Assembly: GCF_964204865.1 (NCBI RefSeq)
Contig: NC_135252.1
Span: 16,761,383-16,825,382, forward strand
Source of the DNA: Styela clava
Lineage: Eukaryota > Chordata > Ascidiacea > Stolidobranchia > Styelidae
Length of the DNA: 64,000 nucleotides
Reading direction: 5' to 3'
Shown here: piece by piece, positions 10,615 through 61,726 of the stretch
Position numbering within the stretch: the stretch's first letter is position 1
Layout: every line of letters begins with the position of its first letter
Position numbers and translations under genes: made by a program
Notes under the pieces: generated by a model
Databases searched by the model: none
Seen by the model: the letters and a program-made list of their open reading frames with translations, nothing else
What the model was told of the DNA's origin: nothing

Positions 10615-13600
10615 TTTGGTTGAAACCGTAGTAGACTTGATTTGATAAGTATAAAATAGATACAAACAGTTGAAAATATATAAACTTTGAACTTTACGTA
10701 GTTAACCAAAAATAAAAAGTCGAAATTTTATTATTTAATATATATATATCGACTTCGTAAGGAATACGTGAACAAATATGGAACGCGTAGTTGAGCGCGC
10801 TCGATTTCTGAATTCAATTCCCGAACTTTTAAAGTAGGTTGGAAGTTTCAAAAGGCTGACTGGAGTACTGAAACCAAAAATAAAACCTTTCCAAATCAAC
10901 CCACCGCACGCAATTTCAATAATAATATTCGGGATGTGTACCAGGTTAGGGTTGGGCCACAATTTTATTCTGATTTTCCTTATTTTAGTTCTATAACGAG
11001 TTCGGGGACTGTTTGTGTTAGCCAAGTGAATATACCCACTGCTCATGGGCTTCCGTCCCTTTACACAACTTGATGTAGAGTAGTCAAACAAAATTAGTTA
11101 CCTCTATATTGATACACATACTTCTGGAGCGCCCCCAACTTATGCATCCGCTGTTCACCCGTATTGATGAATAAGATATCTCTTAACTCGTAAAAAATAC
11201 TACTCTTTTGATTATAATCACGAACTAAAATTTCTGTAAACTCATATTCGTAAATTTGAGTTATTATTTGGCATATGTTAACGAAGTAAAAAACTTGTAA
11301 TTAAGAATGTAATTAAGTAAAATCCGATCGTAGTGAAATTACAATTCCTGAATCTAAAATCTCAAAGTCTCATCCTTCCGACGAACGCCGACGTGTTGTG
11401 GCGAGTCTCATATTTTGTCCTGTTTTCTTCGCTTTAGCTTAGGACAGCATTTTTTTCTTGATTTTCGTCATCCACAAGATTACAATTTATTCGTCGCGAA
11501 ACCAGATACGTCATACGAACAGTATTTCAAGAAAAAAAGATTTTTACATCGATCTCAAAAGTAAATTATATGTTTTTTTTATAATTTCCATTTGAACGAA
11601 TAACCAAACTAGTATAGCGAATAATGACAGCCCCAAGTAATGTGTAATTAAAGTATAAAAATCAATTATTATAAAATTATTTAAAGGCTTATTATTATTG
11701 GACTGAATATATAATAGTACGCGCCAATACGATGGTTTCGTTTTAAAATCATGAATTTCAACTTTTGGGGAATAAAATTTTTTCAAGTTTTCGAAATTTT
11801 AATGTAGCGTTCTTAGAAATTGAAAACTTGTATCCAAACACTTATCGCATACGAGACTTGATACGGGATACGCTATTTTATTGATTGTGTAGATACGTGT
11901 TCTGATTGGTTAGGTTGTTCTCTTAGACTGTACACATCAACGGATTAAAAGTTGTCACTTAACCCGAAGTTTCTTGTAATCTCGTTTGAAGGTCACAGAA
12001 AAGATATCAGCCAGCATCTTTTATTGTTTTCATTAAATTAATCGTATTAACAGCAACTAAGTGAACAATAGGAAACGATGAATACAAAAGCGATCGCATA
12101 AACATGAAAATAAACATTTCGTGAGTCGACAAGAGAACCTCGATCACGATGTTGCCACAAATAATAAAAGAGCCGAGACAGCGATAATGTCGAGGCATGA
12201 ATACATAACAACTCACCGCAACCACTTTCAGTACAGAGCATATCAATCCCGTGAAATCGTTTCGATGGCAATCAAAAATTCCGACCGTACTTTGAATAGA
12301 AAATTTATCACGGCTGCAGTGAACCGATATTCTTTTAAGTATATATATTGTTTTGTATTTCATTAAATGTGCATATACCATTATCCACTGAATGACCGAT
12401 GACGTATAGCATTATGAGCTTCAAACTGATGTTTTTACAGACATTTGTGTCTCAGATTAAGATGAAAAAATCAGCTGCAGCGTAAAAGGATTTTATTTTA
12501 TTGAACATTGACTTCTGCGATGATCACTTAAATTAAAGCGGTAATGAGATATTGGCCACATAAGCGTTCATTTTTCTCTCACAAGTCTGTCTGAGCTCTG
12601 ACGAATAAACATGCAGCTGCTCACTAATTTCGCAAACACCGCAATTAAGCGATTTGGTTTCCTTTTAAGTATGAATGAAGCGACGTCATTGATGCACTAG
12701 ACTTCATCAAAGGTTTTAGATTGGGCATATTTAGACAAACCTTACGTCATAGGCCACATCCATTTTATTATGATCATACGGTCAGACAACTTCACTGGAA
12801 CACAACGAAACAATTTATAAAGGAGTGACTCTTGATAAGGCATCGTTTCGTGAGAAATACCTTTGGTGTTTCGTTATACTTCGCCCCAACCACGGACCAA
12901 ATACATTTTTCATAGACGTCTAAACGAAATGGGAGCGCCCGCTAGGTGTTTCCATTAAAAATAAATATTCTCAAGCTTACTTGCGTACTTGTTCAATATT
13001 TCATCGCATGCCGGACGTTCAGTGCAGGATGTCTTACACCTAATCAGTTCGCGTTCCTCGTCTTAAGCTGCTAACCACGGTTTCAACTCTGCTGGAAGTA
13101 CGAAATAACTCACATAAAGATGATTGATGGTTATCTGATTGCGTAATAAAACTTGTAAGTCCATGAGCAACTTTTATGGAAAGTTATTACTATACGAATG
13201 TATGGCTTTATTTTTAACCACTCATCTGCATCGTTGCGATACATGTCTTTTTTCACACTATATTTGGACATTTGGAATAAGATGAAAGAATTTTTCGTCG
13301 CGCTAAATCCAGCCATGAAATGAGGAATTCCATTATTTGAAAAAATGTTAATGTAAAAAAAAATCGGCTAATCCGAAAGTCAAAATTTACTATTTGATAT
13401 AATTGTTCAACCAAATGAGTTCATATTATATTCTCTTGCACGAACCTCACATCTGTCCATTGAAGTTAAAAGGATAGTACACGCGCCGCCGTGGTGAAAA
13501 TGCGTTAACAACTGTGCATATTTCAAATAATATAAACCACAAAACAGCGTTTTCGTCAAGAAAATTGATTTCCGTTTATCTACTTAAATTATAACAAAAA

Positions 13601-16529: not shown

Positions 16530-17040
16530 GGATTTGTTCAAAAAGAATTGTTTTAAAACAATTGTTTTAAATCAAGTTTTTTTGCCTGTATTGTTCAAAA
16601 TGGCTGTACGATTTAATTTTTTTGCATTAAATAGGTTGAAGGAAAATGGACGTAAAAACTTTCCAAGCGCTTCTTATTAGCAATAAATCCTCCGAAACGC
16701 CACAAATATCGACACACACCTTCTCAAGCTGTAGTTCAGTCTTGAAATACTATCTTAAAATCTTATGACTTTGGTGTAGATACCACCGTGGCGATAAATG
16801 TACGCAAGGGAAATAAAAGTCAAAACAAGAATTTTTACTTACATTTTTGAAAGTATAATTCCAGCAGCGTATGCAGCTGCCAGAACGCAACGTTTTGGCG
16901 TAGTTTAGCGGCGATGCAAGGGGTATTTCAATAAAAAATACAGAAAAAAATTTATGTAAAACAAGCCCTTGTTTTAAAAGCCGATGTTTTTTTAGAATTG
17001 ATAACAAACAAAACCCTACTTGTATAACTTCGACAACGGA
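16530..17040 (+). repeat. about 0.5 kb dispersed repeat, copy 1
   Basis: It matches 38667-39070 in direct orientation. Both begin near TTTGTTCAAAAAGAATTGTT and share GTGGCGATAAATGTACGCAA, CAACGTTTTGGCGTAGTTT and AAAACAAGCCCTTGTTTTAAAA. The last block is an internal palindrome near the 3' end. No protein is encoded; probably a non-autonomous transposon. Confidence 0.75.
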
Positions 17041-19058: not shown

Positions 19059-22000
19059 ATGGGATTAGGAGTATTGTTATTGACTGGGGTATTTTCATTG
19101 GTTGATCTTGCCGCCACGAGTGTCATACTTGCTCATGGAAATGACTGGGATTTGCTTCTCCAACAATTGAGAGATAAATCTGTTGCAACAACTGGATTGG
19201 ATTTTATTATTTTTGCAGTTGTACGCAGTTCTCTACTTATCGGAGCACTCATTGGAATAATTCGAAATCCTACTGAAGGAGCGAACAAAATTGAGGCAGC
19301 TGGAAACTATGTTTTCAGCATTTCAATTGCAATAGTTTTGTATATTTTTGCGAAACTGCTGGTGTATTCAGAAACGCAGGATTTCTTGAATGGTTATGGT
19401 ACAATGTGGTTTTGGATTATATTTGGATGGTCAATTCTTGCATTCGGTATAACCATTATTTTATTCGGAAAGTTGTCTAAACATATACCAAACACAATTG
19501 AAGTTGATGCCAATGATACAAACGTTTCTGAAGCTGATGAAAATACTCCATTGCTCAAAAGTGCTATCAACTTGCCTACCAATGAATCAGAACAGCAAGG
19601 GCCAAGTTCCAGCGATACTTCAACATCTGGATATAGTGATAACGAGGATAATGATGCAGATGATAATAAGAAAGATAAAGATGAAAAAGAAAAGAAAAAA
19701 AGTTTTAAAGAACTTGTAAGCAAAGTCACAATTACGAAAATGTTATCGTACTCAAAAAAAGATGTGCATCTTATCTTCACTGCGATTGTATTCTTACTTG
19801 GTGCAGCATTGGCTGAAACTTTTATTCCACTTTTTACTGGGAGAGTTATATCAGGTAGATATGTTTTCAATATACAACCGTATGACCAAGGAAAATTTTC
19901 TATTCCATTTTTTTCTGTATAGCTGATTTTAATGAGTCTAACCTAAAATAAAATGTTGAAAATTTTCTTTGTATATTGCTTTGCTTGGTGTATTTTGCTT
20001 TTGCTTTGTCCAAGGCTCTGTACAAGCTGTCGCTGCTAGGTAATGCACTATTATTGTTGGAAACAATTGGCACTGCCTCCCCAATTTATTCTAACGTTTT
20101 ATCCACTGGGCCAACATAAAACTGATTTAGAGACTATCACCACTGGGTCGTGCAATTATTCTCAATTGCTCAAAAATAAACAATTACCGGTAGCAATGGA
20201 ATTGCAATATTTAATCTGGCTTTGTAGTTTACGGTTCTAGGATATCTCGCCACAGGAAATTTCACCTCGTAGGAAATATCAGCACAAGAGCATTTTGCTG
20301 TAAAACAAGTATTCGGAATAAAAACAGTTACCGTAGGTTTTTTAAGTACCGGTACCTTTTTTGTTTAAAAAAGATTCATTATTTTAAAGCATACCCTAAA
20401 CCTAAAATATTCCAAGCATCCTATAAATCGAACTGTTTTTATCACAAATACTTGTTTCACAGCACTATGCTCTTGCGGCGATTTTTACTATGTGGCGATT
20501 TTCCGGACACAGAAGTTTACCTCCAGAACTGTCTTTTCATTATTTTTCATTACCGTTTTTATTTTGCATCGCCTCTTGGTTCTAGTTATTATTGCAATTT
20601 GTCTATCAGTAAAGTAAAATCTCTTCTACCAAGAAAGAGATGTTCGTGATACCAGCACTAACCGGCAGAAATCAATTTTTATTTACACAGGTATTGCCAT
20701 TGATCAAGATACGCAAAAATTCACAAAGAATATCATTATAATGTCTTTAATTACAATTGCTGCATCTATATGTGCTGGTTCTCGAGGTGGACTTATGTCA
20801 TTGGCAATTGCCAGATTCAATATGAGGATCCGGAATCATTTGTTTGAATCACTGACAAAACAGGAAATTGGATTTTTCGACACAACTAAAACTGGTATAT
20901 GAATATGTTTTATTCAAAAATGACCTATGAAAGTTTTTATTTTATTTTTTACTTTGCTAATTGAACTAAAATATATTTGAGCTAAAATAAATTTGAGTTA
21001 CCATGGCTTGTGACATATATTTGTGTTGTGCTCACTATTAGCCAAATCTTGGAAGAGCATTTAATCTTATTCAATGTATATTTTTATAAAAAAATTTGCT
21101 CAAAGCAAAGTCGCTCACACTAACTCAAAAGTAAAATGGAATAAAAATTTTAATATAAAAGTTTTTTGGTAAGCACAGTAATCCAGCCCATATATAGGTC
21201 TACTTGGAGAAATGTGCCCTTTTTTGTGGTATTCGAGTCTTATGTCTATACTCTTCACAAAAAAGGTGTAAAATGCCGTAGATACAATAGAACTCAACCC
21301 ACCCTATATGAATAATATGAAGTTATATATTGGTATTGTTTGCAACTGTCGAGTCATACTGTTACATAAAAGCATATCTAATTCTTATTACACAGGTGAT
21401 ATGCTGTCACGCTTGACTTCTGATACGAGTACAATGAGTGACATGATTGGACTTAATTGTAATATATTCTTACGAAGTGTTGTAAAAGCTGTCGGAACTT
21501 GTGTTTTTATGTTTTCATTATCTTGGCGACTTACTGTTGTCACATTCATGGGTTTGCCACTGGTTCTTGGTGTTTCAAAGTTATATGGGAATTATTACAA
21601 GGTACTTTAAATGAGTAAAGAAACATACATAGCATTATACACTACTATATTTGTTGAAATAGATGCATTTCAATGGTTTAAAATAAACGTTTGCATTCCC
21701 TAATTTGTCTATTTGTCTGTGGTTTTATATCTTTTGTTTGAACCTCTGAAAGCCTATTTTGCATAACTCCACTACCTCAACCAATACATTGACTAAGTTA
21801 TTCTGAAAATAAATAATTATGGTGTTTCCAAACCCTCCGAAGTTGCATGTGCTGAGCCTTTTTTAGAGGCACATCAGAAAATTTAAAATATATACAAAGC
21901 CATTACCTATTTATTAAGTAGTATTATTTGTTTATAATTTCTGTGTAAGAATACCAAATATCAGTTCAAAAAAAATTTGAGCTTCTAAGATTTTTATTTA

Positions 22001-25000
22001 TAGTTGCATAAGAATTTTGAAAAAGAGATGTGATGTGAAAAATTATGGTGGTTCATATTTATGGAAAAAAATAATGGTCTTGTGTTTCTAGCATATTTTG
22101 CAATGTCACTAACTTCATCAACATTATACAATGTTCATTCATGATTATTTTCAGAAATTACAAACACAAGTACAAGATGCATACGCATCGGCAAATGAAG
22201 TTGCAGAAGAGGTTGTATCCTCCATGCGAACTGTTCGAAGTTTTGCAAACGAATCTGGTGAAAACAGCCGTTATGAGGAGAAAATGCTTTCAGTTTACAA
22301 GGTTCAGAAAAAGCAAGCTATTGCTTATGCTGGTTTCATGTGGTCGACAGAGGTTTGTTTTAATATATCTCACCTTATTAGACTTTTCTTATATTAGTAA
22401 AGATCATTGCACCACTAAGTTTGTATCTTGACAATGACTGTGCTAATTTTATGTGAGTGTGATGGCCATCTGTTTGATGATTTTGCAGTTTTATCAGATA
22501 TTGGTTCATTGGCTGATTTGCCATATTCGGGTGCTTGTAATGCATCACACATTTATATATATCCCTATATACATTTGAAGTTCTCAACAGAGAAATTTGG
22601 ACAAATCTTTGTATATCTATAAAAATTGAAGTTTGCAAATGGTCAACACGAAACTGATTAGATAAACATTCTCTTTTGATTCATTTCAAAAATGTTTCAA
22701 TATTCAAAAGTTTTATGATGAAGTGTGTTTTTGTCTGACCGTCATATCTTTTATGATGATAAAGATGGGTAAAATTCTTCCTGAAATCAACAATTTATCA
22801 TATTTAACTTGTTTTGGACATCCTTGATTCCACTATACACTAAAATGGCAAGAATTGAGTCCTTGTTGGTTGTTAAAATGCTTGTATGTGTGGTGGATAT
22901 ATAGTTGAGGGCGCTCCAGAAGTGTGTGTACCAATATGTAGGTAACTAATTTTGTTTGCCTACTTTACATCAAGTTGTGTGAAAGCCTAAAGGGACTGAA
23001 ACCTATTGGCAATATTATATTCCTATATTCACTTGGCTAACACAGACAGTCCCCGAACTCGTAATAGAACAAAAATAAGGAAAATCGTAATAAAATTATT
23101 GCCTAACCCTAATCTGGTACATGCACTACAGCAGTACCCAGTCAAGACATATGAAACCCCTCTAATATAATTCTTAATGAATTCCATCTTTATAGACCTT
23201 TGAATGGATTTTTTTTGTTGTAACATTGTGGTATGGTGGACACCTGCTATTCAATAACATCCTCTCAGCAGAACACTTCATTTCAATTATGTTTTACCAA
23301 GAGGAATTGGGTCAGATAATGGAAGAGTTAGGGGAAGTTTATACAGGTTGATTATCCCAAAACTTTCAGTAGCATGTCGATTTGCTGTATGCTTTATTTT
23401 TGCTTGCACCTTTAGTTTTTAATTATTTAATTGGACACGTTTAGTGGCCATAACGATCGTTTCAATATCATGTTGTTGTTGTTGTTCTTGTTCTTTGACA
23501 CGTTTTTAAAAAATCACTTTTCTCTTCGAATACTGGACCAATTGCTTTGAAATTTTCAGTGGTTAAAGATTAATTTCTTCGCTAGAAGGCTATTACTTTT
23601 ATTTATTTCAAAATTTTGCGTGAATTCTATGAAATTTGATATTTCGTCTAAGATTTTGCTGTATTATTTTTTATCCATGGGAACACGGATTTTAGTCAGT
23701 GTCATGACTGGCTGTACGTTTTGATTCTGCAAAATTCTGCTACTGGAAATTCAGAACTTTTTTGAGGGTACCGGTAGCGTCAAAGGTACCGGTAAAGACT
23801 GATTCGCATTGGTCTAACGTGTCCATATATTTGTGCATAGCTCTCTTGTTTGTTATAAAACTGCCATTAACTTCTAATAATAATTATTACCCATTGCCAG
23901 ATTGAAGTTCTTGCGCTGGTCACCTTGACATTGTGGTATGGCGGCCATCTTGTCTTAGGCCATCTAATGAAAAGTGAAAACCTGATCTCGTTCATTCTTT
24001 ATCAAATTACGCTCGGTGGTTCTATGATGGAAATAGGAAGTGTCTATACAGGTAGGAAAATTTCCCTAAAAATGAATTTTCATTAATTACCAGATCACAA
24101 CACTTGCGCTCGTCACTGGAACTTTATGGTATGGTGGCCATCTTGTTTTGAATCATCTCATGAAAAGTGAAAACCTGATCGCATTCATACTTTACCAAAT
24201 AACGCTTGGTGATTGTATGTCAAATGTAGGAAGTGTTTACACAGGTACAAAAGTCACCAAAATTCACCATCTTCAAATGCATGGCTTCGGTGCAAAAATA
24301 ATTTTTTCATAAAAGAAATTGAATGTGTACTAATTTTACTTCATTACGAATTACTAACATTACTGTCTCCATGCAATTAATGCATCACAAAATCACTAGA
24401 TTCAAGATGCTGTGACACATATAAACTGTGCTGAGCTCAGACTCTCAGTACATTTGAAAAATGTGGTCTAAATATATAAACATTCTTTTATACCCCTAAT
24501 TTTATGGTGACTCGCTAACGCTTTTGAATATTCAGTACCTGCTGCATATTTTGTAATTTGTATGTCACATGACATCCAGCAGTTTAATTAATAACATAAG
24601 CATTTAGTATGTCAGTCTGCATTTTTTTCATCGATAATGACTGACTATTGATTATAAATGTCCTCTCTTGCAAGTTCTAATAATATAATATGCATCAAAA
24701 AAGACAACAATTGGCAAATCAACGCTTTCAGAACAGTATCAAATATTACAGACATTGCTAGTTTCAGAAAATATAATGAATAAATAATATCATACCACCT
24801 TTTTACGTTGTTATCCTAATTTCAAGTTAGGTCATATAAGTTTCATGTTTCCATTGATATTATGATTAATTCTGATTCTCATTTGGCATTTCTTGGTGTT
24901 ACTGTAGATACTCCATTACATGTGTCATGTGTATTATTTAATTTTGTCATGCAGATATTTTTGTCAGTGCACTATTTCATCTTTATGTAACTTTGTTTGC

Positions 25001-28000
25001 TCATACCCTTGCATAACCTCATTATTGATTGCTATACTCGTTAATTTCATGCATCTTGTCATTTTATTCCAATCTTGCTTGGATTTACATAATAATCACT
25101 AACATAACACCCAATATCATTTACTTCTATCTATAATGTCTCTTCGATGTTCTAATCTCTTTTGAATATTTGGTGAAATTTAGACTTTTCAACAAAGTTT
25201 GTTTCATTAGCCTTACTATTATATATTCTACTTGATTTAGTTTGATTTTTTAACTTAGGAATAAATTATGTGTAAAAAATAACTTATACATAGCCTTGTT
25301 CAGGATAATATGGGAATTAAAATACCTAAATGACGTGTTTATGGAGTTATTTCATGAAGTAATATATTGCATTATTACCAGTAAAATTAATAACATTTAT
25401 ATATATATAGGTTGGAAGTTTTTTACAGAATGCATAAAATTTTTAATTTCATCATAAATATATACTGGTAATGCAATTCTGATTCATTCCAATTTCCAAT
25501 GCTATAACATTGAAGAATTTAGGATTTGCGTCATTTTACCTTTCAATTCCTAGTTTATGGCTCGATTTTATGAAGTAATAGATTTCATTATTAACAGTGA
25601 AAATAATATATACAAATAGATACAAAATTTCACATCATAAAATATGATCCAATTTCACAGAATGCACAATTCAGTAATATCCATTTGATAATGGAAATGA
25701 AGTTCATAATAATTTATACCTACTTTCATCTATATCTGTACACGTAGCATGGCATTGTTACAAGCTATGAAGCATATATCTGAATTCATTTTATTTATTA
25801 AAATACTTGTGTGTGTCTAACAAACTTCTTTGCGCCACCAGTGTGCAAAATGTTACGCATATCATGGCCTACATATGGATTATAATGGTCATAAATATTT
25901 GTAGTCTATTCATATAAATGCTGATTAGGCCTTTTGCATCAATATCTTTTCTTTATGTATTGTTACTCTGCATGATTATTTCCATATCTCATTCATTTTA
26001 ACATATGCTAACTTGTTTTGCATGCACTTGTTTCAGATATGAAATTTTATTTTTGAAATGAAATTGTTTAAAACTTTAAAGGTGTTGAAAGGAGAAAAAT
26101 GCAATAAATAAAATAACTGAATAATTTTTAGGTCTCATGCAAGCGTTAGGAGCTGCAGAAAAAGTTTTTAAACTGATTGATCGTGAACCAGAAATAGAAT
26201 TGAAATCTGGAGAACATAAGCCTGAACAATTTGAAGGACAAGTTTCATTTGATGATGTTACTTTTGCGTATCCATCAAGACCAAAGCAACCGGTTTTAAA
26301 GGTAAAAAGACTTGGCAATTTTTTTATACAAATTTTATCAGCACAAAGTCTAGTACCCTTGTACAAAAGTGGAAAAATCCCTGTTAGAAATTTTACACTA
26401 AGAACTTTATATAAATATATATATATATTCAGACATCCAGTTAGCGCATCATTTTCACCAACTATTAAATTCAATGTTACATCTATGCATAATATAATCA
26501 TTACATTTAAGTTCAACTTTTTGGCAACTGCTTGATTTTGGCACCCTTGCCTTTGTCTGATTTGCATATTTACCATTTATGCATATTAGTCTCCTTGCAA
26601 TTATGATTTGATGCCGATTGGATTTGATTTGATGCCGATTCTCATCATTTTTCTGCGATTTGAGAGTCTTGCTGTACGGTGACGCATATATTTCTGTTCT
26701 GTTTCGTCTGACTAAATATTACAGAAAGTAAAGAAATACATTTGCGTTAGTGTACACAAGACTCCTAAATCAAAACTCTTCATCTTCACTTTCGCTACAG
26801 CAACCTTGTATTTTTACCTATAAAGCTCGCCACCGCTAAGCATGGAAGAAGGATAAGTAATTGCTCTAACAGGCTCCCCAATCCAGTGGTTCAGATTTTT
26901 TTTAAACATCCTCTCTTTGTCTGTTTTAATTCTCTTTATTCCTCCCTCGCTATGTATAGAAACCCTGCTCCCTATATTTGTTCAATATTTGAAGGATACT
27001 TGACTTGTGTTACTCATACTCTTTTTTTTTTGCATAATTGGATATTTAAAACAACAATACTCTTACCCATATCGATAGCAATATTGTCATCTCGTAGGCC
27101 GTAGCCAATATGTAGCCTGGTATGAAATCTTTCTTAACCAGTTCGTTTTTTTTTTTTTCAGAAAGTATCTTTCATTGCTCCTCCTGGTCAAGTGACTGCA
27201 TTAGTTGGGCCAAGTGGTGGAGGGAAATCGTCTTGTGTCAACTTACTTCAACATTTCTATGAATGTGTGTCGGGATCTATCAAAATTGATGGAAATCCTG
27301 TTGAAAAGTATTGTCACAAGTACCTACATCAAAAGGTATGATAAAATTGTTCTTTTTTTGTGAGTATTACCTAATTAAAGTTAAGATTTAATAAAGGGTG
27401 GGTTAAATAATATGTGTTCAGGCAACACTTCATGCTTCATTCTATCATTTGTTTAGCAGAAAAAAAGCTCGATTTTGGCGTATGATTTTTATAAAAGATA
27501 CTTTTTCTTTAAAATATGAACATTTTTTGAGCGTTTCAATACAACTGGACGATTGTTAAAATTTAAAAGTTTCATTTGAAAAATTGAAATAATCACAAAC
27601 GAAATAGGTAGCCTACTCTTATTTGAAGCAATGTTCACCATCGTATTTGAAGAAAGGGGACAGGAGTTGAAAAATCAAAAATATATTTTTACTCATTTCC
27701 CTAAAAAGTTTTTTTTTTCAAGTTCCACCCTTTTGGGTAAAACCTTCAATTTGTGTTTCTGTTACTCTAATGGGCACATTATTGTCGTAGGTTACCATGT
27801 CCAATTAAAAGTGACCACAACATATCTTCCCTTGTTAATATTTCCGGTAATTTGAGTTAGGTGATAATTAATCTTGTATGATTTCTCACTTGTTTCCTAC
27901 TTGTATTTATCATTCGGGTAATAGAGTTATAACATATAGAATTGAATATGCTGGAAATGGTGCCCGCTTCCTTCGCAGGAAACAATAATGTGCCTGATTC

Positions 28001-30876
28001 ATATATACAATTTGTATTGCTGCCTCGATAAATTCTCTGAATAATTTGGCATTTTTATTTAATGATCTATAGATATCATTGGTGGGTCAAGAACCTGTGT
28101 TATATGCTCGTTCTATAAAAGAAAATATTGCATATGGGATGGATGATAGTGAATATGCAATGGAGGATGTTGTTGCAGCAGCTAGAAAAGCAAATGCTCA
28201 TTCATTTATTACTGAATTGACTGAACAATATCAGACAGGTAACTGTTTCGCGTCGCAAAATGGCTGCATTGCTTTTCTCTGACTTAAGTTGGTTTAGTTA
28301 AGGATATTGAAATACCGAGTTGAACATCCTAAGACTCTTCCTTTTGCCATATATTTTGTTTCGAATAGCCTTCGTGGGTAATATATTTTGGCACTAAAAG
28401 TACACCTCATATGACCACTAAGGTGAAGCTGCTGGTATCGGAAGGCCAGCAAACATTGCAGAGTTTTCTAAAAAGATCAGCAGACAAGCAACACGGAGGC
28501 TATCAAGCCATGAAACAAAAATTCTCCACAATATAAAAATGGCAAAATTTTGGGGTTTTATAGGATCTATAGAAAATTTGAAAAAAATGTAACAGCCTTC
28601 TAGTGATTTCTTCCTTCAAGTACTGAAAAATTTGGGATTGGTTTATTATTTGCAGGGAACAGTGATTCTTTCCCAACAACGATAGCAAGAATTTCACAAC
28701 ACCCAAAGTCACTTCATCCCTATAAAAATCATACTTTTACATAGAATATGACAAATTGTTTGACAAAAAAATGTCATTTCAGTTGATGAATTTTGATTGT
28801 ACAATTGTAATTATCTCTATCTTTACATTTCCATCTTGTTTTGTATAATGGAGTTAGATCATAAGTTCATATACTTGCTATTTCATGGAAAAGGATCGTT
28901 ATTCCTATTTATCATTGAAATGTGTTATTTAATATTTTTAGAAACTGGTGAAAAAGGGACCCAATTATCAGGAGGTCAAAAACAAAGAGTTGCGATAGCT
29001 CGTGCATTGATTAGGAATCCAAGAATCTTAATTCTTGATGAAGCAACAAGTGCTTTAGATACGGAGAGTGAATATTTGGTATGGAATTGGTACTATATCT
29101 TGTCTGTTGTTAGAAATAGTGACTTTTGTTAGTAGTTACTTATATCTGATTGTGGTGTGAACCTTCCACTTGCCACAAGCTAAAATCTATTCAGTTTTGA
29201 ACTCTATCAACCACACTTTTACCCTTTTTTTATATAAAAAATATTGTGGAGTGGGTTTGAAATAAAAAGATGTTCTATTAAGAAATAATATTCAATTATT
29301 TTTAATTTATTAACTTATTTTTACCAAGGATCCTATTTTTGTGTATGCTTTGCCTTTCAGCATTAAAAAAACAGTGGTGTCCATTTTTCTTATTATTGTT
29401 TATTTATGCTATTTCTTTGAAAGGTTCAACAAGCATTGCAAGAAACAATGAAAGATAGAACAGTTATTGTTATAGCTCACAGGTATGGTGAAATTCACTG
29501 TCTCTACTATGATCAATGTGTAGGTAGATTAGTGAAGTTGGAACGGTCGATCAAAATTAGGTATTGTGTACAATGATGCATGTTTTCTAAATAACCCGCT
29601 GGGGTTCTACGATTCATAATGGGCCTTGTGGTTAACTATTATGGCATCACAGGTTAAAATCTCTCAAATCCCATGCCCACCAACCGTTCCAAGATGTAAT
29701 AAATTGATTCAGTTCATTCAGTTGATGCATACCGCCAACCTAGCTCCTTACCTAGCAGTTGGGGCTCGTGCGAAGCCTTGGTTCAGAATATATGCCGTAG
29801 AAATATCTCCATAAAAAAATATGTGAGATGATCCACCGTTTGCATGCAACAAGCCACTTATATACAGCTAACAAAACAGCTATGTACAAAAGATACAGAA
29901 CCTTATTGGGCAAACCAAGCCTCTCATTACATACAAGATGATAAGCACAAGATGTATGAACGTGTAGACATTTTTATCCATTGATTGATACATGTTCTCT
30001 TATTCAGACTTAGTACTGTTGAATCTGCAGATAAAATTGTGGTCATCGATAAAGGTGAAGTCGTGGAACAGGGGAATCATGCAGAACTTATGAAAAGTTC
30101 AGGAATGTATTATAAACTAGTGCACAGGTGTGTAAAAGCCTTAAGTTCATAACAAAACATTTGGAAAATATCAATATCAAAATACTTTTGTGCAGGGTAG
30201 TGCTATGTAGTGGGATATTCACGCCCCACTTCGACACCCCTTGGTTGACAGAAAATTTGATACCTGCCCCAGGTTGAAGGAAATTTTAACTCCATCTCTC
30301 TATTTTGAAAAAAAAAATTTATTTTGACCGAAAAAACTTTGGCGTCTTCAATTTTATGCTGAGAATTTGAAGTATGAATTAAATACTTTTTCTGTTTCTG
30401 TCAAACATTTTAACTTCAATTGTGATTATCAAACGTCTGAAATTTCTAACCTTAATTAAGGAACTTCATCTTTACTTCAACTCTGGATAGTTTTTAAATA
30501 CGACTTCTGTTCTGACTTGAATGTCAATAAATAAATGCCAGACTCTGTCTCTACCCTACTTCAAGCTCTTAGCAGTACCTATTAGATCTTCGTGACACAT
30601 ACTTTTTATTTCAAATACAGACAACTTCACACCAAACACGGCCATAAAAAGCGAGAAAGATCCAGGACTGGTTCGAGTGCCAGTGCCAAACCAGCTAGTC
30701 GAAGTTCTTCTGTTAGCAAAAGTTTAACTATTGCTCATGATACAATCATGCCTCGTTCTGTTAGTATATCATCATCAGTTGTGTCAGAAAAAAGTGCATT
30801 GTCATCTTCGCCTGTGTCAGCAAAAAGCTTCAGTTCTGATTCTGAAGACGAAAATTCACGGCTCAGAAGAATTTAA
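19059..30876 (+). CDS. ABCB9: ABCB9/TAPL-like half ABC transporter, 12 coding exons, 878 aa
   Basis: Exons: 19059-19854, 20691-20894, 21396-21601, 22155-22352, one of three alternative exons 5, 26132-26301, 27162-27335, 28073-28238, 28942-29078, 29424-29482, 30008-30127 and 30621-30876; all GT-AG and in phase. The family exports peptides from cytosol into lysosomes as a homodimer. Residues 1-150 are a four-helix TMD0 with the ABCB9-type start. Residues 155-225 are an acidic then Lys-rich linker, longer than in the human protein. The core membrane domain follows (about 235-530), then the nucleotide-binding domain: Walker [10 protein letters not shown] (591-599), Q-loop Q639, signature LSGGQ (697-701), Walker B ILILDE with catalytic E722, and H-loop H753. 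All ATPase residues are intact. The last exon adds a Ser-rich tail. The blocks [20 protein letters not shown] and [16 protein letters not shown] place it with ABCB9 more than with TAP1/TAP2. The first ATG was chosen because it starts the TMD0 helix. Confidence 0.93.
22905..23180 (+). repeat. interspersed repeat in intron 4 of the ABC transporter
   Basis: It starts GAGGGCGCTCCAGAAGTGTG and matches the reverse complement of 10870-11150. It ends about 15 bases before alternative exon 5a. The terminal GCGCTCC-GAAGTNTGTG module is shared with the palindromic repeats at 31419 and 37117. Confidence 0.7.
23196..23346 (+). other. ABCB9: alternative exon 5a of ABCB9-like gene (divergent version)
   Basis: 151 nt, entering in phase 0 and leaving in phase 1, open throughout. 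It encodes residues 469-518 with the conserved core TLWYGGHLL and the end VYT. By eye it is about 40% identical to version 5c, with an acidic second half ([17 protein letters not shown]). The acceptor is CTTTATAG. The donor (ACAG/GTTGAT) is weak, so it may be rarely used or decaying. Confidence 0.65.
23901..24051 (+). other. ABCB9: alternative exon 5b of ABCB9-like gene
   Basis: 151 nt, same phases as 5a and 5c, with acceptor ATTGCCAG and donor GTAGGA. It encodes a membrane segment with [19 protein letters not shown] and [19 protein letters not shown]. It is about 80% identical in protein to 5c. Only 42 nt separate it from 5c. Confidence 0.85.
24094..24244 (+). other. ABCB9: alternative exon 5c of ABCB9-like gene (closest to vertebrate form)
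   Basis: 151 nt, phase 0 to phase 1, with acceptor TTACCAG and donor GTACAA. It encodes [19 protein letters not shown] and [17 protein letters not shown]. The LGDCM-VGSVY block matches the single version remembered from vertebrate ABCB9, so this is the likely ancestral copy. Joining 5b to 5c would shift the frame and reach a TGA after about 25 codons. Confidence 0.85.
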
Positions 30877-38666: not shown

Positions 38667-39070
38667 GCAATTTGTTCAAAAAGAATTGTTTTTAACCGTA
38701 ACAATGTCTTACAACCCTTGATCTAATTGCTTTTGTAGAAGGCTCGTGAGCTAAGTTTCATGATTTTTCTTACTCAAAACGTCTCTCTGGTATCTCGGAT
38801 AAACATTTCGGTTAAAATCTTACGACTTTAGTGGAGATACTAACGTGGCGATAAATGTACGCAATAGAAGTAAAAGTCAAAATAAGAATTTTTACTTACA
38901 TTTTTGAAATTATAATTTCGGCTGCGTGTGCAGCTGCCAGAATGCAACGTTTTGGCGTAGTTTCGCGGCGATGCAAGGGGTATTTAAAAAAAAAGTGGAT
39001 TTAAAACAAGCCCTTGTTTTAAAACACGATGTTTTTTAGAATTGAAGAAAAACAAAACCCTAGCTGTTGG
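38667..39070 (+). repeat. about 0.4-0.5 kb dispersed repeat, copy 2
   Basis: Direct repeat of 16530-17040; see that entry. This copy also retains the AAACAAGCCCTTGTTTTAAA palindrome near its end. Small indels separate the copies. Confidence 0.75.
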
Positions 39071-54277: not shown

Positions 54278-55732
54278 ATTATTATATATAGATTATTGTC
54301 AAGTAGCTGTGTAGTGAGATAGAGTAAAAAATAAAATACTATTTTATATTGATTCATAGGCTTGATTGTAGAGTAGGTATCGAAATATTATTACAATATT
54401 ACTTGGGTTGAACATAATCACTGAATAAAATCATAGATCATTTGGCCGTAAAAATTTTAATATGGAAAATATCCAGAATCTAATGCATCAGAACTTTCAA
54501 GTTCGCCTTACTGTTGTTAATTATAATATTGAAATACTTTAACCTGTTTCAGACGCCCAATCGAGCCCAATTTTGAATACATTTTTATTAATGTCATACG
54601 ACCCCCAAAATTTACCCAATATACAATAATTATATACCATTGGAAAGGTATTTTAGAGTACTATACGCTAGATGTCACTGGAGGACCGTAAACTAAAACA
54701 CCTCTTTCAAGAGGTCTCTCGTAACGTCAAAAAATAACAAAAATATTTACACTCTCTCATTCTATCAGCTGTTGGACGTCTAAAGCTATTGTAAAGCTGA
54801 AATGTGACTATACAGTTGACTGCACATTGGTTTTCTCTTTCATATGATACTAAACGCTTTTCCATAGCGCGCGTTGTTCAAGCGTTTTGGAAATTTTCCG
54901 TTTGAGAAGTCACCACATCGAATCAGGCCAGGCTAAGCTTGATAGATCGATCGGTTGTTTGTTTGTGCTTTATCGCGTTGAAAGCTTTTGTGAGTCATAA
55001 TAAAACATTTATTATGAATCATAAAAGCTTATAATCGTCAGACAAGGAGAATTTGCGAGATAAAACGCCTAACTTTTTTTCGGTGAGGCAGCTGCGATCA
55101 AACGACTCGATATTTTTATAACTTCCTGACGTTGTGAGATGTCCACTCTCCTATGTTATGTAGCATATAAAATGACCTTCAAAATAAGACCTTATCATAC
55201 TAGCTTTTGTTATTGGTTAGCGCGCAACGCCAAGGTTTATGGAATCATTTTCTTGTTGTGCGACGTTTTTATATCGCAGCGGGAAGTACACGCGTGATAT
55301 GTAAGCGAAATTTTATCACTTCTAAATGTCATATAAGGTTCATTCTCATATCGTTGTGTGGGGAATAAGATTTCCTTTCAAGCAAGACCATAACAAACAT
55401 TCCAGACCTCATGGTATACACACAGCATTGCAAAACGTCGTGCATGCGTCAAACCGGGAGGATTAGGTTAAAGAAGTAATAATAATAAAATTACAAATTA
55501 CTTCACTTGCCTTCAAATATTCGATCACAACGAACAAGCATAATTTTTATTTCTTTGATAATGTGAATAACAACAAATACCCGAATAGAGAGCCTCGTTT
55601 TCTATACCATAGCAAATTGTTTATTAAGGTACCGTACTGTACCGTACCTGGCAATCAAGCAGGGGGTACGGTACCGTATCTCTGTATCTACAGATCTTTT
55701 ATTGCTGTTAACGTATGCGTTTCTGGTTTCTC
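54278..55732. other. region upstream of WDR36, no recognised gene
   Basis: It includes the putative WDR36 promoter at its left end. The sequence from about 54540 onward has transposon-like texture (ATACCATTGGAAAGG and repeated CGCG-rich blocks), but no paired ends were identified. Confidence 0.35.
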
Positions 55733-57334
55733 GGGTCTCATGTAGTTTCTTACCTAACATACTTCTAGTGGGCGTAGCATGACAATTTTTTCACCTGTCA
55801 ATACTAACCCCCACCTGACTACACCATCCAAAAATTACGTCATTACTGCATTACGACGTCACAGTGACGTAATAGAGCCCTTTGAAACTATACGAACTGC
55901 CATTCAAGACGCGCAAACGAGCACCCGAAATCGAACAGTTAGTTCTCTCGTGGCAACGATTCCAATAGGAGAGAGACCGATAACGTCAGTCAGTTCTTGG
56001 GTCTGGTATAGTTTAGTACCACATCCACTTCTAGTTGGCCTGGCTCAACAATTTTTGCATATGTCAATCCTAACCCCCACCTGACTACGTCACCGAAAAA
56101 TTACGTCATTCCGACGTCACAGTGGCGTAATAAGGCCACCGAAGTATGCAGATGGTCGTCCAAAACGCGCAGACGATAACCCGAAATCGAGCAAGCTATT
56201 TTTCTCGTTTTTTGTCGCAATGATCACGATAGGAGAGAAATCGTCGGCTTTAGCAAGTTCTTATCGGCGGCGCAGATGCCATTTCGGGCGATCGCAATTA
56301 TACCGTAAAACCGGCTAACTTCGGATGCCTTGTAACTTCGGATGAAATTTTCAATCATTCATATCTCAACTAAATTTCGTCGTATTGCGCTTCTGTCGGT
56401 TTCTATAGTAAGGCCTTACATATCTGAATCTGCCGTAGCCTCCAATCGCTCGATTTGATTTTTTATCATTCAAAAAATCATATTTTACCAAAAAAATGAC
56501 ACCGTTTTTTCGAGCGGCTCAAATCGTGACTTCTACAGACGCTACCTTCGTCAAATCACCGCCAAGCGCTAGAGAGCGAACACAATGTATACAAAAAAAT
56601 ACAGTGATCACAAGGTGTCGTACGAGATTCGAGTGAAATCGATTATTTTGATTTAAAAATTACATCAAAATATCGACGTTTTGATGATTACGTACAGCGT
56701 GACGTCAACGACGCAAATCCCGTTCTCTCTCTTCGTAGCCGACGTCACTTTGCGTAGCTCGTGCGTTACTCGCTGCGACATTTGAACGCCAGACATCGCG
56801 GCGCCCAGTTTTGTGAAATTTAAAAATTATGCTTATCCATGATCCTAGTCACTAAATCCTACAAAAACATCACTATCGTCTCATTCATATGTTGTTTATT
56901 TAAAAATATGGGTATGCATACGCTTAATGCATATGAAATTTGTCGATTTTTGTTTTTGCATACTTCCTCCGACACCGATAGATACCGTAGCAATTGGTAA
57001 TACGTTAGGCCTGAAACATGTATCTATACGATCATAATGATTAGATATGTCTGTAGATTAGATATGTCGGCAGATGATAATAATATCTTTAACAGGTGAG
57101 CGTAGAACTCTACATACATGCACACAGCAGGAGGTTGGACCACATACAGGTGAGGCGCAAAATGAAAAAAAAGTGGCAAAGTTTCTTTTTGCCGTTTTTA
57201 TCCGTTTATTGTCATTTGACTTTATTAAGTGAAACGAAAGCGAGGATCGAAAGTCACACCGGGCAGGAACCTCTGCCGAGCCGATCAACGGGGAGCTCTG
57301 AGAAAATCAGAAAAGTGATAATCAAGACGAAACC

Positions 57335-57487
57335 TGCTCTGCTTGTGGATTATGGAATGATCCAAATGGAAGTACGGAAATTGAGGTGGAATGGGTCGGT
57401 TGCGAAAGCTGCAGCGAAACACATTGGTTCCACAAGAACTGTTGCAAAGACCCGTCTAACCCATGTGGAAATGATTACAATTCTTGA
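57335..57487 (+). CDS. PHD-type zinc finger coding fragment (last exon?), 50 aa
   Basis: In this frame the sequence reads CSACGLWNDPNG...WVGCESCSETHWFHKNCC...SNPCGNDYNS and then a stop. The C-x2-C, C-x2-C, H-x2/4-C pattern with a Trp before the first core histidine is that of a PHD finger. The same frame is open upstream only back to a TGA at about 57299-57301. An acceptor-like AG at 57301-57302 or 57309-57310 could make this a terminal exon. PHD fingers occur in proteins of several eukaryotic DNA transposons, which suits its place inside the inverted-repeat island. The longer 143-aa ORF on the same strand (57096-57527) is in another frame and looks like a shadow. Confidence 0.55.
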   Translation, partial: CSACGLWNDPNGSTEIEVEWVGCESCSETHWFHKNCCKDPSNPCGNDYNS

Positions 57488-57490
57488 TTT

Positions 57491-57710
57491 TGCCAGCGTT
57501 TCCTTCAATTCATCTGTTTATTTTTAACTGTCGAATTTTTGTTCATACCTTACTTGTTCCATATTGCTTTTTGATTTCAATTTTTACTTTTGCCAGTGTT
57601 TCATTCGATTCATCCGTTTATTTTTAATTGTCTAATTTTTGTTCATTCTTTACTTGTTCCATATTGCATTTCAATTTCAACCTACACCAGTGTTAGGTAC
57701 TTTCAATTCT
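57491..57710 (+). repeat. tandem array, about 2.2 units of 102 bp
   Basis: Unit start GCCAGCGTTTCCTTCAATTC at 57491 recurs as GCCAGTGTTTCATTCGATTC at about 57593 and partially as ACCAGTGTT at about 57687. Each unit contains CTTACTTGTTCCATATTGC. It lies directly after the PHD fragment. Confidence 0.75.
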
Positions 57711-58550
57711 TCCGTTTTTTTTGTTTTGTTAATCCTTTTCTTGCATTGAAAATAACGATCATAAAAGAACGAACTAGCATTTTGCAATAAATTAGGAGTA
57801 GTTAGTGAAATATATACGAGTTATAATAAAGGACACAAGAATAAATAGTTAGGCTTCGCGAAGCGGCGAGAGTAACGTCACGTACAAACGTCAGTATTCA
57901 ACACGCAAGACAGGTCGTGGCGGCGTAAGGTCTATTCAGCGACGTTGTCACGCGTCATTGCTTACGCAGACATTTCTCTCTCACGACGAGTTGACGCAAA
58001 GAGAAAAGTGGCCATCCGAAGTTAGATAATTTTAGAATAGACGAATAAAGACAATAATTTCAATGAAAAAAGGCTTTGATGGATATGGAACCGACTTTAT
58101 CAAGACGAGAATAGCCACAATGTATTATATTCCAAATTTGGCTTCAGTTGAACAACATGCGGCGGAGATATTGTTCAAAATATAGTGAAATCATCCGAAG
58201 TTAGCCGGTTTTACGGTACTTTGGCAATCCCTATGACGTGATGGTGACGTCGTAGTGACGTAATTTTTGGATGGCATAGTCAGGTGAGGAATAACATAAT
58301 ATGCAAAAATCGTTATGCTACGCCCACTGGAAGTACTTGTGGTACTAAACTATACTAGACCCCAGTTCTTTATCGTCGGCGCCAATGCCATTTCGGTGCG
58401 TATATTTGGCAAGCTCTATGACGTGATTGTGATGTCGTAATGATTTAATTTTTGGATGGCGTAATCAGATGGGGGTTAGGATTGACATATCAAAAAATTG
58501 TTATGCTACGCCCACTAGAAGTACGTTAGGTACGAAACTACACGAGACCC

Positions 58551-59099
58551 CGTTTCTCTCCCATCTGCCCATTGGTATTACTGGTTTCCCTAGACAGCTT
58601 TGTTTGAATTCAAAAATTTGAACGCTTTTGATTTGCGTGAATCAACAGATGCTCGTATTCTTCAGCAATAAACTAATGTTAAAATAAGCCTCGACACAGT
58701 ATCCTGGTACGGTATCGGTACTGTAATCCGCACACAAGGTCATCAACTTCAAAGTTATACTGTAGTCACTTTGATCAACTTCAGACAGGCGTGGGCGACT
58801 GAATTATCTCGCAAGCCGGCGCATCCTCATCGCCCTCACGCGACAAGCTTAACTTACAAGACTGAAGAGTGGATTGTAAACCTACGATATTCACAAAATT
58901 CATCTCGAATTGAGAGCCTGGTGACGCCAAAGCTTGCAGTGTAAAAATTGTTTCATTATTCCAAAGCTTGCTTGAGTTGAATTTTTTTAATTTGGTAATT
59001 CGTTTCAAGAGAGTAAGTCAAGATTTTGTTTCCAATGGCGTTAATGACCTGGGAATTAAGTACACATTCTATCACAGATCCCGGCTGATACATATATAT
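58551..59099. other. spacer right of the transposon island, no recognised gene
   Basis: No exon recognised; no inverted-repeat partner found. Confidence 0.4.
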
Positions 59100-59733
59100 A
59101 TCTATACTGTATAATCCCATGTATATATCTTTCTAATTAACTAAACACCGCCACACCAAGGTTACCACTTTGAAGACGAAAAATGAAGCAGCATCGGTCA
59201 CAATAATATATGAAGTTGCAAGCAGTATAAAAAAATAAAGTTTCAATATATGATTAACAATTTACAGTACAACCAATATAAAATTCCACGATTCAATGCG
59301 ATAAATTGTGGAAGTTGCTTCAATTACCATATAATCAAATTGGTCTCTTACACAGAACATTTTATCATCGATTAAAAAGTTGATGGCCCCATGATGATTA
59401 AACTTTATTCTCCAATAAAAGTTAATTGGCATTTTCAATACAATGACATATTCAGGACGGCAGAAAAAGGAAAAGTATAATGACAATACTGTAAAGAGAA
59501 AAAATGAATATGCAACAATGCTTGGATGCTGCATTAGTGAATAAAGACAAAGGTTTTACAGATTGTGTAATACAGAAAATTTTAAGAAATACAGTACCAA
59601 AAGTTATGTACCATTCCCTTGACCGTAAATATATACTACTACGACTTGACAAATAAAAGTTATACCGATATCGAGATTCAAATTTAAAAGCAATATTTTC
59701 AATAAGGCAACGTAGACTAAAAAATAATAGCTC
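59100..59733. repeat. duplicated non-coding segment, copy 1
   Basis: Matches 60557-61308 in the same orientation with indels. Both start near TATACTGTATAATCCCATGT and share AATAATATATGAAGTTGCAA, TTCAATATATGATTAACAAT and ACAGTACCAAAAGTTATGTA. Together with the PDZ-related stretch that follows, it forms one unit of a tandem duplication. Confidence 0.85.
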
Positions 59734-60556
59734 ACTGGTTGAGCCGTCATTTGCCGCTGTTCCACCAAATAATGTATCACTTACATATACACCGCTATCA
59801 CTACCTTTGCCAATGGTACTCAATTATGTGGCTTCCGAAGATCATTGTTGTCATTCCCTTAAAATAGTTAACATGACACGACTTGGTGTATTTCTCAACA
59901 CCTCAATAGCTTGATCATGTGTGGCAGATCTTAAATCGTGATCGTTCACCCTCAAAATACGATCTCCGGGCCGGATTCTTTCATCTGTTTCCGCAGTACC
60001 ATCATAAACTCTGTTGACAAATATTGAACCAAGTAACGAATCCGTTCCACCTATAATGTTAACACCTAAACCGGATTTGCCCTTGATAATTTCAATTGTT
60101 GTTTCTTGACCACTGACTATGGGGCGAATCAATGGATCTGGCTGACTGCTGCTTTCAACAGATTTTACGGGTTCTGATGCATTCACTAACTTTACTGTTC
60201 CCCTCGCATTTGTAACAGATTCATAGGACATCCTTTCAAGTGATTTGTCATCAACGGCAAGGATGAAATCGCATTTTTTATTCGTCCGTCTCTACCAGCT
60301 GACTGCACCACTGGGAGTTTCAGAAATAGTAAATCCCAAACATTGAAGATCCTTCACTAGCTTGATCACTTTGGTTTAGGACCGCGTCGCTGAAACTACT
60401 GAACTACGAGAGGAAGTTCTACTACTCCTGTATATTTTTATCGCTGTCGCAATGCTTGTTTTTCTAAATCTCGCTCTCCTGCTTGACGTTGATGATCTTG
60501 ATTTCTAACGGTGCTCTGATGAAATAGATGATGTGCTTTGACTCTTTACTTTTTCA
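59734..60556 (-). pseudogene. decayed partial copy of the neighbouring MPDZ/PATJ gene
   Basis: Read on the minus strand, it is homologous to 63520-62680 of the intact gene: the Ser-rich linker, PDZ2, PDZ3 and the beginning of PDZ4. Damage is clear. The PDZ2 part has frameshifting losses near 60240-60300 and stops near 60370. The linker region has an insertion near 60430-60470. A loss of about 50 bases between PDZ3 and PDZ4 (near 59820) removes the start of PDZ4, and PDZ4 breaks off after GGTAANDGSTS. PDZ3 itself (60231-59851) is still open and near-intact, with GLGVNIIGG and GDRILRVNDHDLRSATHDQA, but the usual alanine-rich DEGAAAKDG turn is altered to DGTAETDER. A one-PDZ peptide could in principle still be made. 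Confidence 0.85.
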
Positions 60557-61308
60557 TGTATACTGTATAATCCCATGTATAGGTCTTTCTAATCAACTTT
60601 CCGCTACCCAACCCAAGTTTAACATTTTGTAGACAAGAAATTAGTGTTGAACCTTTATAATGCATTAAAATATGATCATAACATATTAGTTAATAAAACA
60701 TGTTTGTTAATAAAAATAGCATAAAGTTTGTCATAAAAAGTAAAGAGCTCTCATTCAATAAATGAAGCAGCACCGGTCACAATAATATATGAAGTTGCAA
60801 GCAGTATAGAAAAATAAAGTTTCAATATATGATTAACAATTTACAGGACACAACACTGTACAACCAAGATAAAATTCCATGATTCAATGCAGTATATTGT
60901 AGTCGCCTCAATTACTAATATATTCAAATTGGTCCCCAGCACAGAAAATTTTAACATTGATTAAAAAGTTTCCTGGAGTTGGCCCCTCGATGATTAAATT
61001 TCATTCACCAATAGAATTTGATTAGGATTTTCAATACAATGACAGATTCAGGACAGTAGAAAATAATAAAGGTACCATGACAATAAGGGAAAAAATGAAT
61101 ATATGACAACGTGTAGATGCTACATTGGTAAAGACATGGGTTTTACAGATCATGTGATACAGAAAATTTTGAGAAATACAGTACCAAAAGTTATGTACCA
61201 TTCACTTAGATAAATAAAAAGTTAAACAAATATCAAAATGACAGAATTAAATTTAAAAGCAATATTTTCAACAAGGCAACATAGACTGAAAAATGATAGC
61301 TTACTCAA
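60557..61308. repeat. duplicated non-coding segment, copy 2
   Basis: Direct copy of 59100-59733. The match ends near AATGATAGCTTACTC. On the minus strand this edge reads GAGTAAGC, a donor-like sequence, so the duplicated block may derive from an intron or 3' UTR of the PDZ gene. The following 61309-61726 is single-copy and probably 3' UTR. Confidence 0.8.
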
Positions 61309-61726
61309 ACAAAATATAGAAGAGATCATAACAAACTGAAATGTGGCAAAATACAATACGAATCATATCATGTTTAGTCAGTTTTGCGCTACTACCCAGG
61401 TGAATTAAAATGATTTTGGTCCCATATATCTATGTGGCTTCTTGCCCAAAGCCTCATTAGGAGTGGAGGTATGAAATTACATTAGACTTTTAGTCAACCA
61501 TTTCGACATCATAATTATTCCAACTAAGAATATATTGGATATCCAAAACTTATCAGAAAGCAAATGAAGGATTTCTCGACTATCACACAACATGCATTAA
61601 TATTGTTACATTAAGGAATAATCAATCAATATACTTTTATAGATAAATAGCATTATTACATTTGGGTGTCATGATTATTGTTTTATATGAAGATACACAA
61701 GGTACTGATGGCATGGATTTGGATAA

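Follow-up and report, generated by a model that had tools for sequence, protein, structure and literature searches.

Does the ABCB9-like gene in a 64,000-nucleotide stretch of the Styela clava genome (positions 16,761,383 to 16,825,382 of contig NC_135252.1, hereafter the window) place one, and only one, of three tandem copies of its fifth coding exon into each transcript, and would that choice alter what the encoded transporter carries? From the DNA we predict that it does: in our estimate, the probability that the copies are mutually exclusive exons of an ABCB9/TAPL-type half-transporter gene, tuning its substrate choice, is about 0.77.

To describe the host gene of the array, we used a gene model that runs on the plus strand from 19059 to 30152 and encodes 801 amino acids in 11 coding exons. 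Coding exon 1 (19059-19854) contains the ATG and encodes TMD0 and the linker, and it is followed by exon 2 (20691-20894), exon 3 (21396-21601) and exon 4 (22155-22352), the last being the upstream partner common to all copies of exon 5. Downstream of the array, the common partner is exon 6 (26132-26301), which is followed by exon 7 (27162-27335), presumably the site of Walker A, exon 8 (28073-28238), exon 9 (28942-29078), which we take to contain the LSGGQ signature and Walker B, exon 10 (29424-29482) and exon 11 (30008-30152), which ends with the stop codon TAA.

The initial annotation had called this gene ABCB9-like, and the homology searches bear this out. Using phmmer, the top relative with a solved structure was mouse ABCB9/TAPL (7v5c; E 1e-222, 745 bits, query residues 218-797), compared with 465 bits for TAP1 and 459 bits for TAP2 in the same search. 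ABCB1-type full transporters came second (708 bits) only by summing two halves, the best half giving 370 bits. TMD0 was also found, as residues 7-146 aligned with mouse ABCB9 8-144 (i-Evalue 4.9e-11), and the equivalent of mouse TAPL Y405 is kept as Y460 in exon 4. The NCBIfam model TIGR00958 (antigen peptide transporter 2) gave 822 bits, which is under its cut-off of 874.6. Judged by these similarities, the array-bearing gene is an ABCB9/TAPL-like half-transporter, for which lysosomal location and peptide transport are predicted. It shares with ABCB9/TAPL the N-terminal TMD0, the Y405 equivalent and the 11 coding exons that a review, in the excerpts available, gives for TAP-family genes (PMC5937356).

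With regard to the array itself, the intron on its 5' side (22353-23195) is 843 nt long and contains a repeat (22903-23121) with a second copy on the opposite strand of the window (10937-11140, about 82% identical); the copy in the intron ends about 75 nt 5' of the array. Then follow exon 5a (23196-23346), an intron of 554 nt (23347-23900), exon 5b (23901-24051), a spacer of 42 nt (24052-24093), exon 5c (24094-24244) and an intron of 1887 nt (24245-26131) in which no additional exon-5 copy was found. The initial annotation had placed the three copies at exactly these positions, and its description of them stands: each copy is 151 nt long, is entered in phase 0 and left in phase 1, is open, is bordered by AG and GT, and encodes residues 469-518. 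Its estimates of similarity are likewise close to what we obtained. Exons 5b and 5c, said to differ at about 10 of 50 residues, are identical at 40/50 (80%), and 5a, said to keep about 40% identity, matches 5b at 21/50 and 5c at 20/50 residues (40-42%); the motifs TLWYGGHL and YQ, named as conserved, are present in all three.

A tblastn search of the window with 5a as query recovered 5c at E 2e-9 and 5b at E 5e-9. Neither a fourth copy of exon 5 nor a second copy of any other exon of the gene was found within the window by this method (leftover hits E 4.9-9.8). Genome-wide, the 5a and 5b queries each gave at least four matches, namely the three array copies and the single exon 5 of a paralog described below, a count that is a lower bound as only the best candidates were scored. 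Given these low E-values and the genome-wide matches scored, the similarity within the array is not due to chance. At the nucleotide level, 5b and 5c are identical at 115 of 151 positions and differ at 36, and they form the core of an ungapped repeat of 178 nt (75%) that reaches past the exons by 19 nt on the upstream side and by 8 nt on the downstream side. These differences, together with the loss of similarity near the exon borders, argue that 5b and 5c are not one exon assembled twice.

The reading frame sets a strict rule on how the copies can be combined. Each single copy, be it 5a, 5b or 5c, links exon 4 to exon 6 in an open frame, and all five other combinations (none, the three pairs and the triple) lead to a premature stop. 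The frame break on inclusion of two copies or none had been foreseen in the initial annotation, including the stop about 25 codons beyond the junction of 5b and 5c. In the 5a+5b product the stop is met at the second codon beyond the junction, and the triple (453 nt) encounters stops although its length is in frame. We infer that the copies are used in RNA and exclude one another in cells: a transcript would carry a single copy, be it 5a, 5b or 5c, between exon 4 and exon 6, while any other combination would end early and give a truncated protein or a degraded transcript.

How one copy would be chosen is suggested in part by the spacing of the exons. The 42-nt spacer between 5b and 5c is below all other introns measured or estimated. 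The shortest among 18 other introns of the gene and its paralog is 102 nt, a set that is exact for the gene models and leaves out the four introns in or around the array. Among 33 introns of five CCT genes the shortest is about 68 nt; these introns are approximate, being gaps between consecutive exon matches. Four exon pairs whose profile positions jumped and one pair separated by 2 nt were excluded, and very short introns might hide inside matches containing stops. According to the steric model, which stems from work on alpha-tropomyosin, a donor and a branch point at such a short distance are not expected to act together. Because the spacer is too short under this model, it should hinder the joining of 5b to 5c, and these two exons should exclude each other; splicing across the 42 nt would not be easy.

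No such structural bar was found to the joining of 5a to 5b, the intron between them being of 554 nt. Exclusion between 5a and 5b or 5c would have to come from regulated choice of splice sites or from removal of frame-shifted products, and the 5a+5b product, with its early stop, could be cleared by decay. Pairing of RNA between introns was no stronger than in shuffled sequences for all six pairs of intron regions, as judged by comparing the best real duplex with the best of three shuffles, a small control of three single-nucleotide shuffles per pair.

The splice sites of all three copies score within the range of the other sites of the gene and its paralog, 19 donors and 19 acceptors. The donors of 5a, 5b and 5c score above 7, 13 and 9 of the 19 others, respectively, and the acceptors above 13, 6 and 5, so that those of 5b and 5c are in the lower third. 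Membrane-domain pieces containing 5a, 5b or 5c matched Pfam ABC_membrane at 201, 210 and 214 bits, respectively, with a cut-off of 28.

Moreover, the pattern of substitutions is consistent with selection on the encoded protein. The numbers of identical first, second and third codon positions (of 50) are 42, 43 and 29 for 5b/5c, 24, 35 and 14 for 5a/5b, and 23, 36 and 22 for 5a/5c. Third positions are less well conserved than first and second ones, except for 5a/5c, where first and third are nearly equal. Exon 5a is near synonymous saturation, yet it has kept the frame, the exact length, both splice sites, 20-21 of 50 residues and the core residues. The initial annotation had proposed to compute dN/dS among the copies, and this analysis gave a mixed outcome: values below 1 were obtained for the 5a branch and for 5b and 5c jointly, whereas 5b and 5c taken singly were indistinguishable from neutral. 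For the 5a branch, whose length was at the search bound, omega was 0.086 (2dlnL 5.6 against omega 1, p about 0.02), and for the 5b and 5c branches jointly it was 0.19 (2dlnL 17.8). The values for 5b alone and 5c alone were 2dlnL 2.9 and 0.2, and in a free model 5c reached omega 8.6 on a near-zero branch. It should be underlined that these codon-model tests used the tree in which 5b and 5c are sisters, which is not the best of the three.

Neutral simulations point in the same direction. Starting from 5b or 5c and resampling 70-100% of sites, which gives third-position identities of 13-25/50 (observed 14 and 22), none of 1500 sequences in each of six settings remained open with at least 20 identical residues. 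When 50% of sites were resampled, giving 31-32/50 identical third positions and sequences less diverged than those observed, 58 and 53 of 1500 passed. Taken together, these comparisons suggest that the copies are under protein-level constraint, the test for 5a being a modest, single result.

To trace the history of the copies, we compared them with a second ABCB9-like gene of the same assembly (376.6 Mb in 379 contigs). This paralog lies on the minus strand, at a distance of about 10.8 Mb on the same contig (G000:C3:5994000-6013000, near C3:6.00 Mb). Its splice positions match those of the array gene at all ten introns, and its single exon 5 sits between introns of 242 and 115 nt. Identity between the two genes is about 42% for exon 1 and 65-71% for most other exons. 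The paralog's exon 5 is identical to 5b at 35/50, to 5c at 34/50 and to 5a at 17/50 residues, and its exons 4 and 6 (67 and 65% identical) show a similarity comparable to that between its exon 5 and 5b or 5c. Since the paralog has one exon 5, near 5b and 5c and far from 5a, a single exon 5 is probably the ancestral state, 5b and 5c have probably evolved at about the rate of the whole gene, and 5a is probably either fast-evolving or older. Identity to mouse TAPL is 16/50 for 5a, 23/50 for 5b, 28/50 for 5c and 25/50 for the paralog; that 5a is also the furthest from mouse TAPL points to acceleration of this copy.

The codon likelihood cannot order the duplications, as the three quartets of 5a, 5b, 5c and the paralog fall within 0.9 lnL, the best of them grouping 5a with 5b. 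The placement of 5b and 5c as sisters rests on their identity (40/50 against 34-35/50 to the paralog) and on the extension of their repeat into the flanks. According to the available excerpts of the review, tunicates were found to have a single TAP-family gene (PMC5937356), and the present genome appears to have two.

Outside the gene, the window holds further repeats. One pair (16755-17018 and 38812-39062; 264 bases, 85% identical) may belong to a mobile element family, and a cluster of repeats of 125-257 bases in both orientations (73-83% identity) occupies 55728-58557. Larger duplications in 59181-63518 (59181-59736 with 60760-61305, 78%; 59739-60556 with 62647-63518, 73%) may represent the duplication of a gene or of a group of exons. 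Elsewhere in the genome, contig C9 has, at about 16.177-16.180 Mb, open reading frames that by their motifs we take to be cellulose-synthase-like and, just 3' of them, a partial match to the GH6 domain (35.4 bits against a Pfam cut-off of 27); cellulose synthase joined to GH6 is a mark of tunicates. No COX1 match to Pfam PF00115 was obtained in the whole genome, and the mitochondrial genome may be absent from the assembly or its code may hide COX1.

To determine which part of the protein would be exchanged, we mapped exon 5 onto mouse TAPL. Residues 469-518 align without gaps with TAPL 414-463, and all ten TAPL residues that were checked fell at the right numbers. The exon encodes the end of TM9, a loop and TM10, in line with the earlier assignment to the last core transmembrane helices before the ATPase domain. 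Choice of exon would hence swap a segment that lines the peptide and lipid pathway of TAPL, with 5c as the version closest to mouse TAPL, 5b as a close variant and 5a as a strongly diverged one. In the excerpted cryo-EM study of TAPL, F449 in TM10 forms the divide between a hydrophilic cavity for peptide and a hydrophobic one for lipid, a contact with positive residues of bound peptide is proposed for E456, and the residues close to bound lipid or sterol are L416, L424, I442, I445, I446, F449 and V450; the same source equates TAP2 E417 with the F449 position and TAP1 E459 with the E456 position (PMC9532399).

At the F449 plug position, 5a has Glu, and 5b, 5c and the paralog have Ile, so that none of them carries Phe. 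Position 450 is Glu in 5a and Thr in the other three, and the peptide-contact position 456 is Glu in 5a, Met in 5b and Ser in 5c and the paralog. Exon 5a encodes seven acidic residues but neither Lys nor Arg, and its E449, Q453, E456 and E460 share one face of the helix, all within 40 degrees. The mean hydropathy of TM10 is -0.08 for this acidic version, compared with 0.67-0.97 for 5b, 5c, the paralog and mouse TAPL. Exons 5b and 5c are identical at positions 444-452 and differ near the peptide contact, at 453, 454, 456, 457 and 458. From E449, E450, E456, the seven acidic residues and the common face of E449, E456 and E460, we infer that exon choice affects the substrate: 5a should give a more acidic pathway that favours cationic peptides and weakens lipid flopping. 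Because its TM10 is the least hydrophobic and its Pfam score the lowest, 5a may need a partner subunit or fold less well.

These properties of 5a can also be read in another way, namely that 5c only, perhaps with 5b, is used and that 5a is a once-used, now silent relic. Its divergence (16/50 to mouse TAPL against 28/50 for 5c), its TM10, the least hydrophobic of the set, its Pfam score, the lowest of the three, and the repeat ending about 75 nt upstream would all fit such a fate, and if silencing were very recent, no trace of it would be expected. We nevertheless consider it rather unlikely, since an exon near synonymous saturation has retained its frame, exact length, splice sites and 20-21 of 50 residues, and since its changes look patterned, with an acidic pathway face and E456 kept. 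At the other end of the array, 5b and 5c might be redundant and encode equivalent transporters, so that the array would hold at most two functional kinds. The two are 80% identical and alike at positions 444-452, and the 5c branch alone is inseparable from neutral in the codon likelihood. However, 21 of their 50 third positions differ, which shows that the pair is not very recent, and their differences at 453, 454, 456, 457 and 458 surround the peptide contact; redundancy therefore seems to us quite improbable.

A different use of the array would be as a regulated off-switch, in which inclusion of two copies or none yields frame-shifted, degraded transcripts that set the amount of transporter. 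The early stop in all five non-single products is indeed the geometry that splicing-coupled decay requires, but a simple poison exon needs no full homologous reading frame, and the divergence of pathway residues under protein-level constraint would be left unexplained. We regard this as very improbable. As for a misjoining of haplotypes or repeats, which the initial annotation had named as an assembly artefact that would undo its proposal, what speaks for it is the 379 contigs of the assembly and nothing else; the copies differ at 24-51% of their bases and the similarity of 5b and 5c extends past the exons by no more than 19 nt and 8 nt, which makes an artefact a negligible prospect. We accordingly retain three mutually exclusive exons as the preferred reading.

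Compared with known systems, the design proposed here has precedents, though of other kinds. Tandem duplicated, mutually exclusive exons are described for the ABC transporters ABCC9, Drosophila MRP and C. elegans mrp-1, and the available text treats the exon events of the three species as distinct, with mrp and mrp-1 unrelated (PMC9741552); exon clusters of two and eight are reported for MRP (PMC4588896). Those arrays, absent from the initial annotation, belong to the ABCC subfamily, whereas the present one affects TM9-TM10 of an ABCB half-transporter. Nearly the same design is found in NKCC2 (SLC12A1), where one of three adjacent homologous exons (4B, 4A and 4F) enters each transcript and the swap of a transmembrane helix and loop sets the ion affinity (PMC7818487). 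NKCC2, however, is an unrelated transporter with ion substrates, for which expression and kinetics are proven, whereas the exon choice proposed here is predicted from DNA.

Within the TAP family, the variants of TAPL described in the excerpts of the review comprise terminal-exon variants and two isoforms that lack coding exon 6 or 7 (TM9/TM10 and linker) and are probably non-functional, and none of them swaps the TM9/TM10 segment (PMC5937356). The initial annotation knew of no TAP-family precedent, and in our search no such exon choice appeared for ABCB9, TAP1 or TAP2 among the open-literature matches listed, a scope mostly without subscription papers. As far as searched, the mechanism is known and a TAP-family gene is new to it. 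With TAP1 and TAP2 the array shares its location: exon 5 aligns with TAP1 417-466 and overlaps the stretch Q453-R487 cross-linked to peptide, as given in the accessible part of that work (PMC5277011), and 5a resembles both proteins in having Glu at the positions of TAP2 E417 and TAP1 E459 in the excerpted comparison (PMC9532399). In TAP1/TAP2, two pathways arose by gene duplication and meet in a heterodimer, whereas here the pathway would vary by exon choice.

If the exon choice is real, a single gene could yield pumps that differ in their peptide channel, and S. clava would provide a natural set of three chimeras that differ in TM9-TM10 only. Such a set would test which residues of the segment matter for peptide choice, lipid flopping and coupling, as well as whether one gene makes heterodimeric peptide pumps. 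A possible, though doubtful, extension is that a non-vertebrate chordate diversified a TAP-family pump by exon choice, with 5a as an acidic, TAP-like version and dimers of 5a and 5c as heterodimeric pumps from one gene. Exon 5a carries Glu at both TAP positions, and the peptide-contact Glu is missing from 5b and 5c; were the extension true, the mixed 5a/5c dimers would be a splicing-based parallel to TAP1/TAP2.
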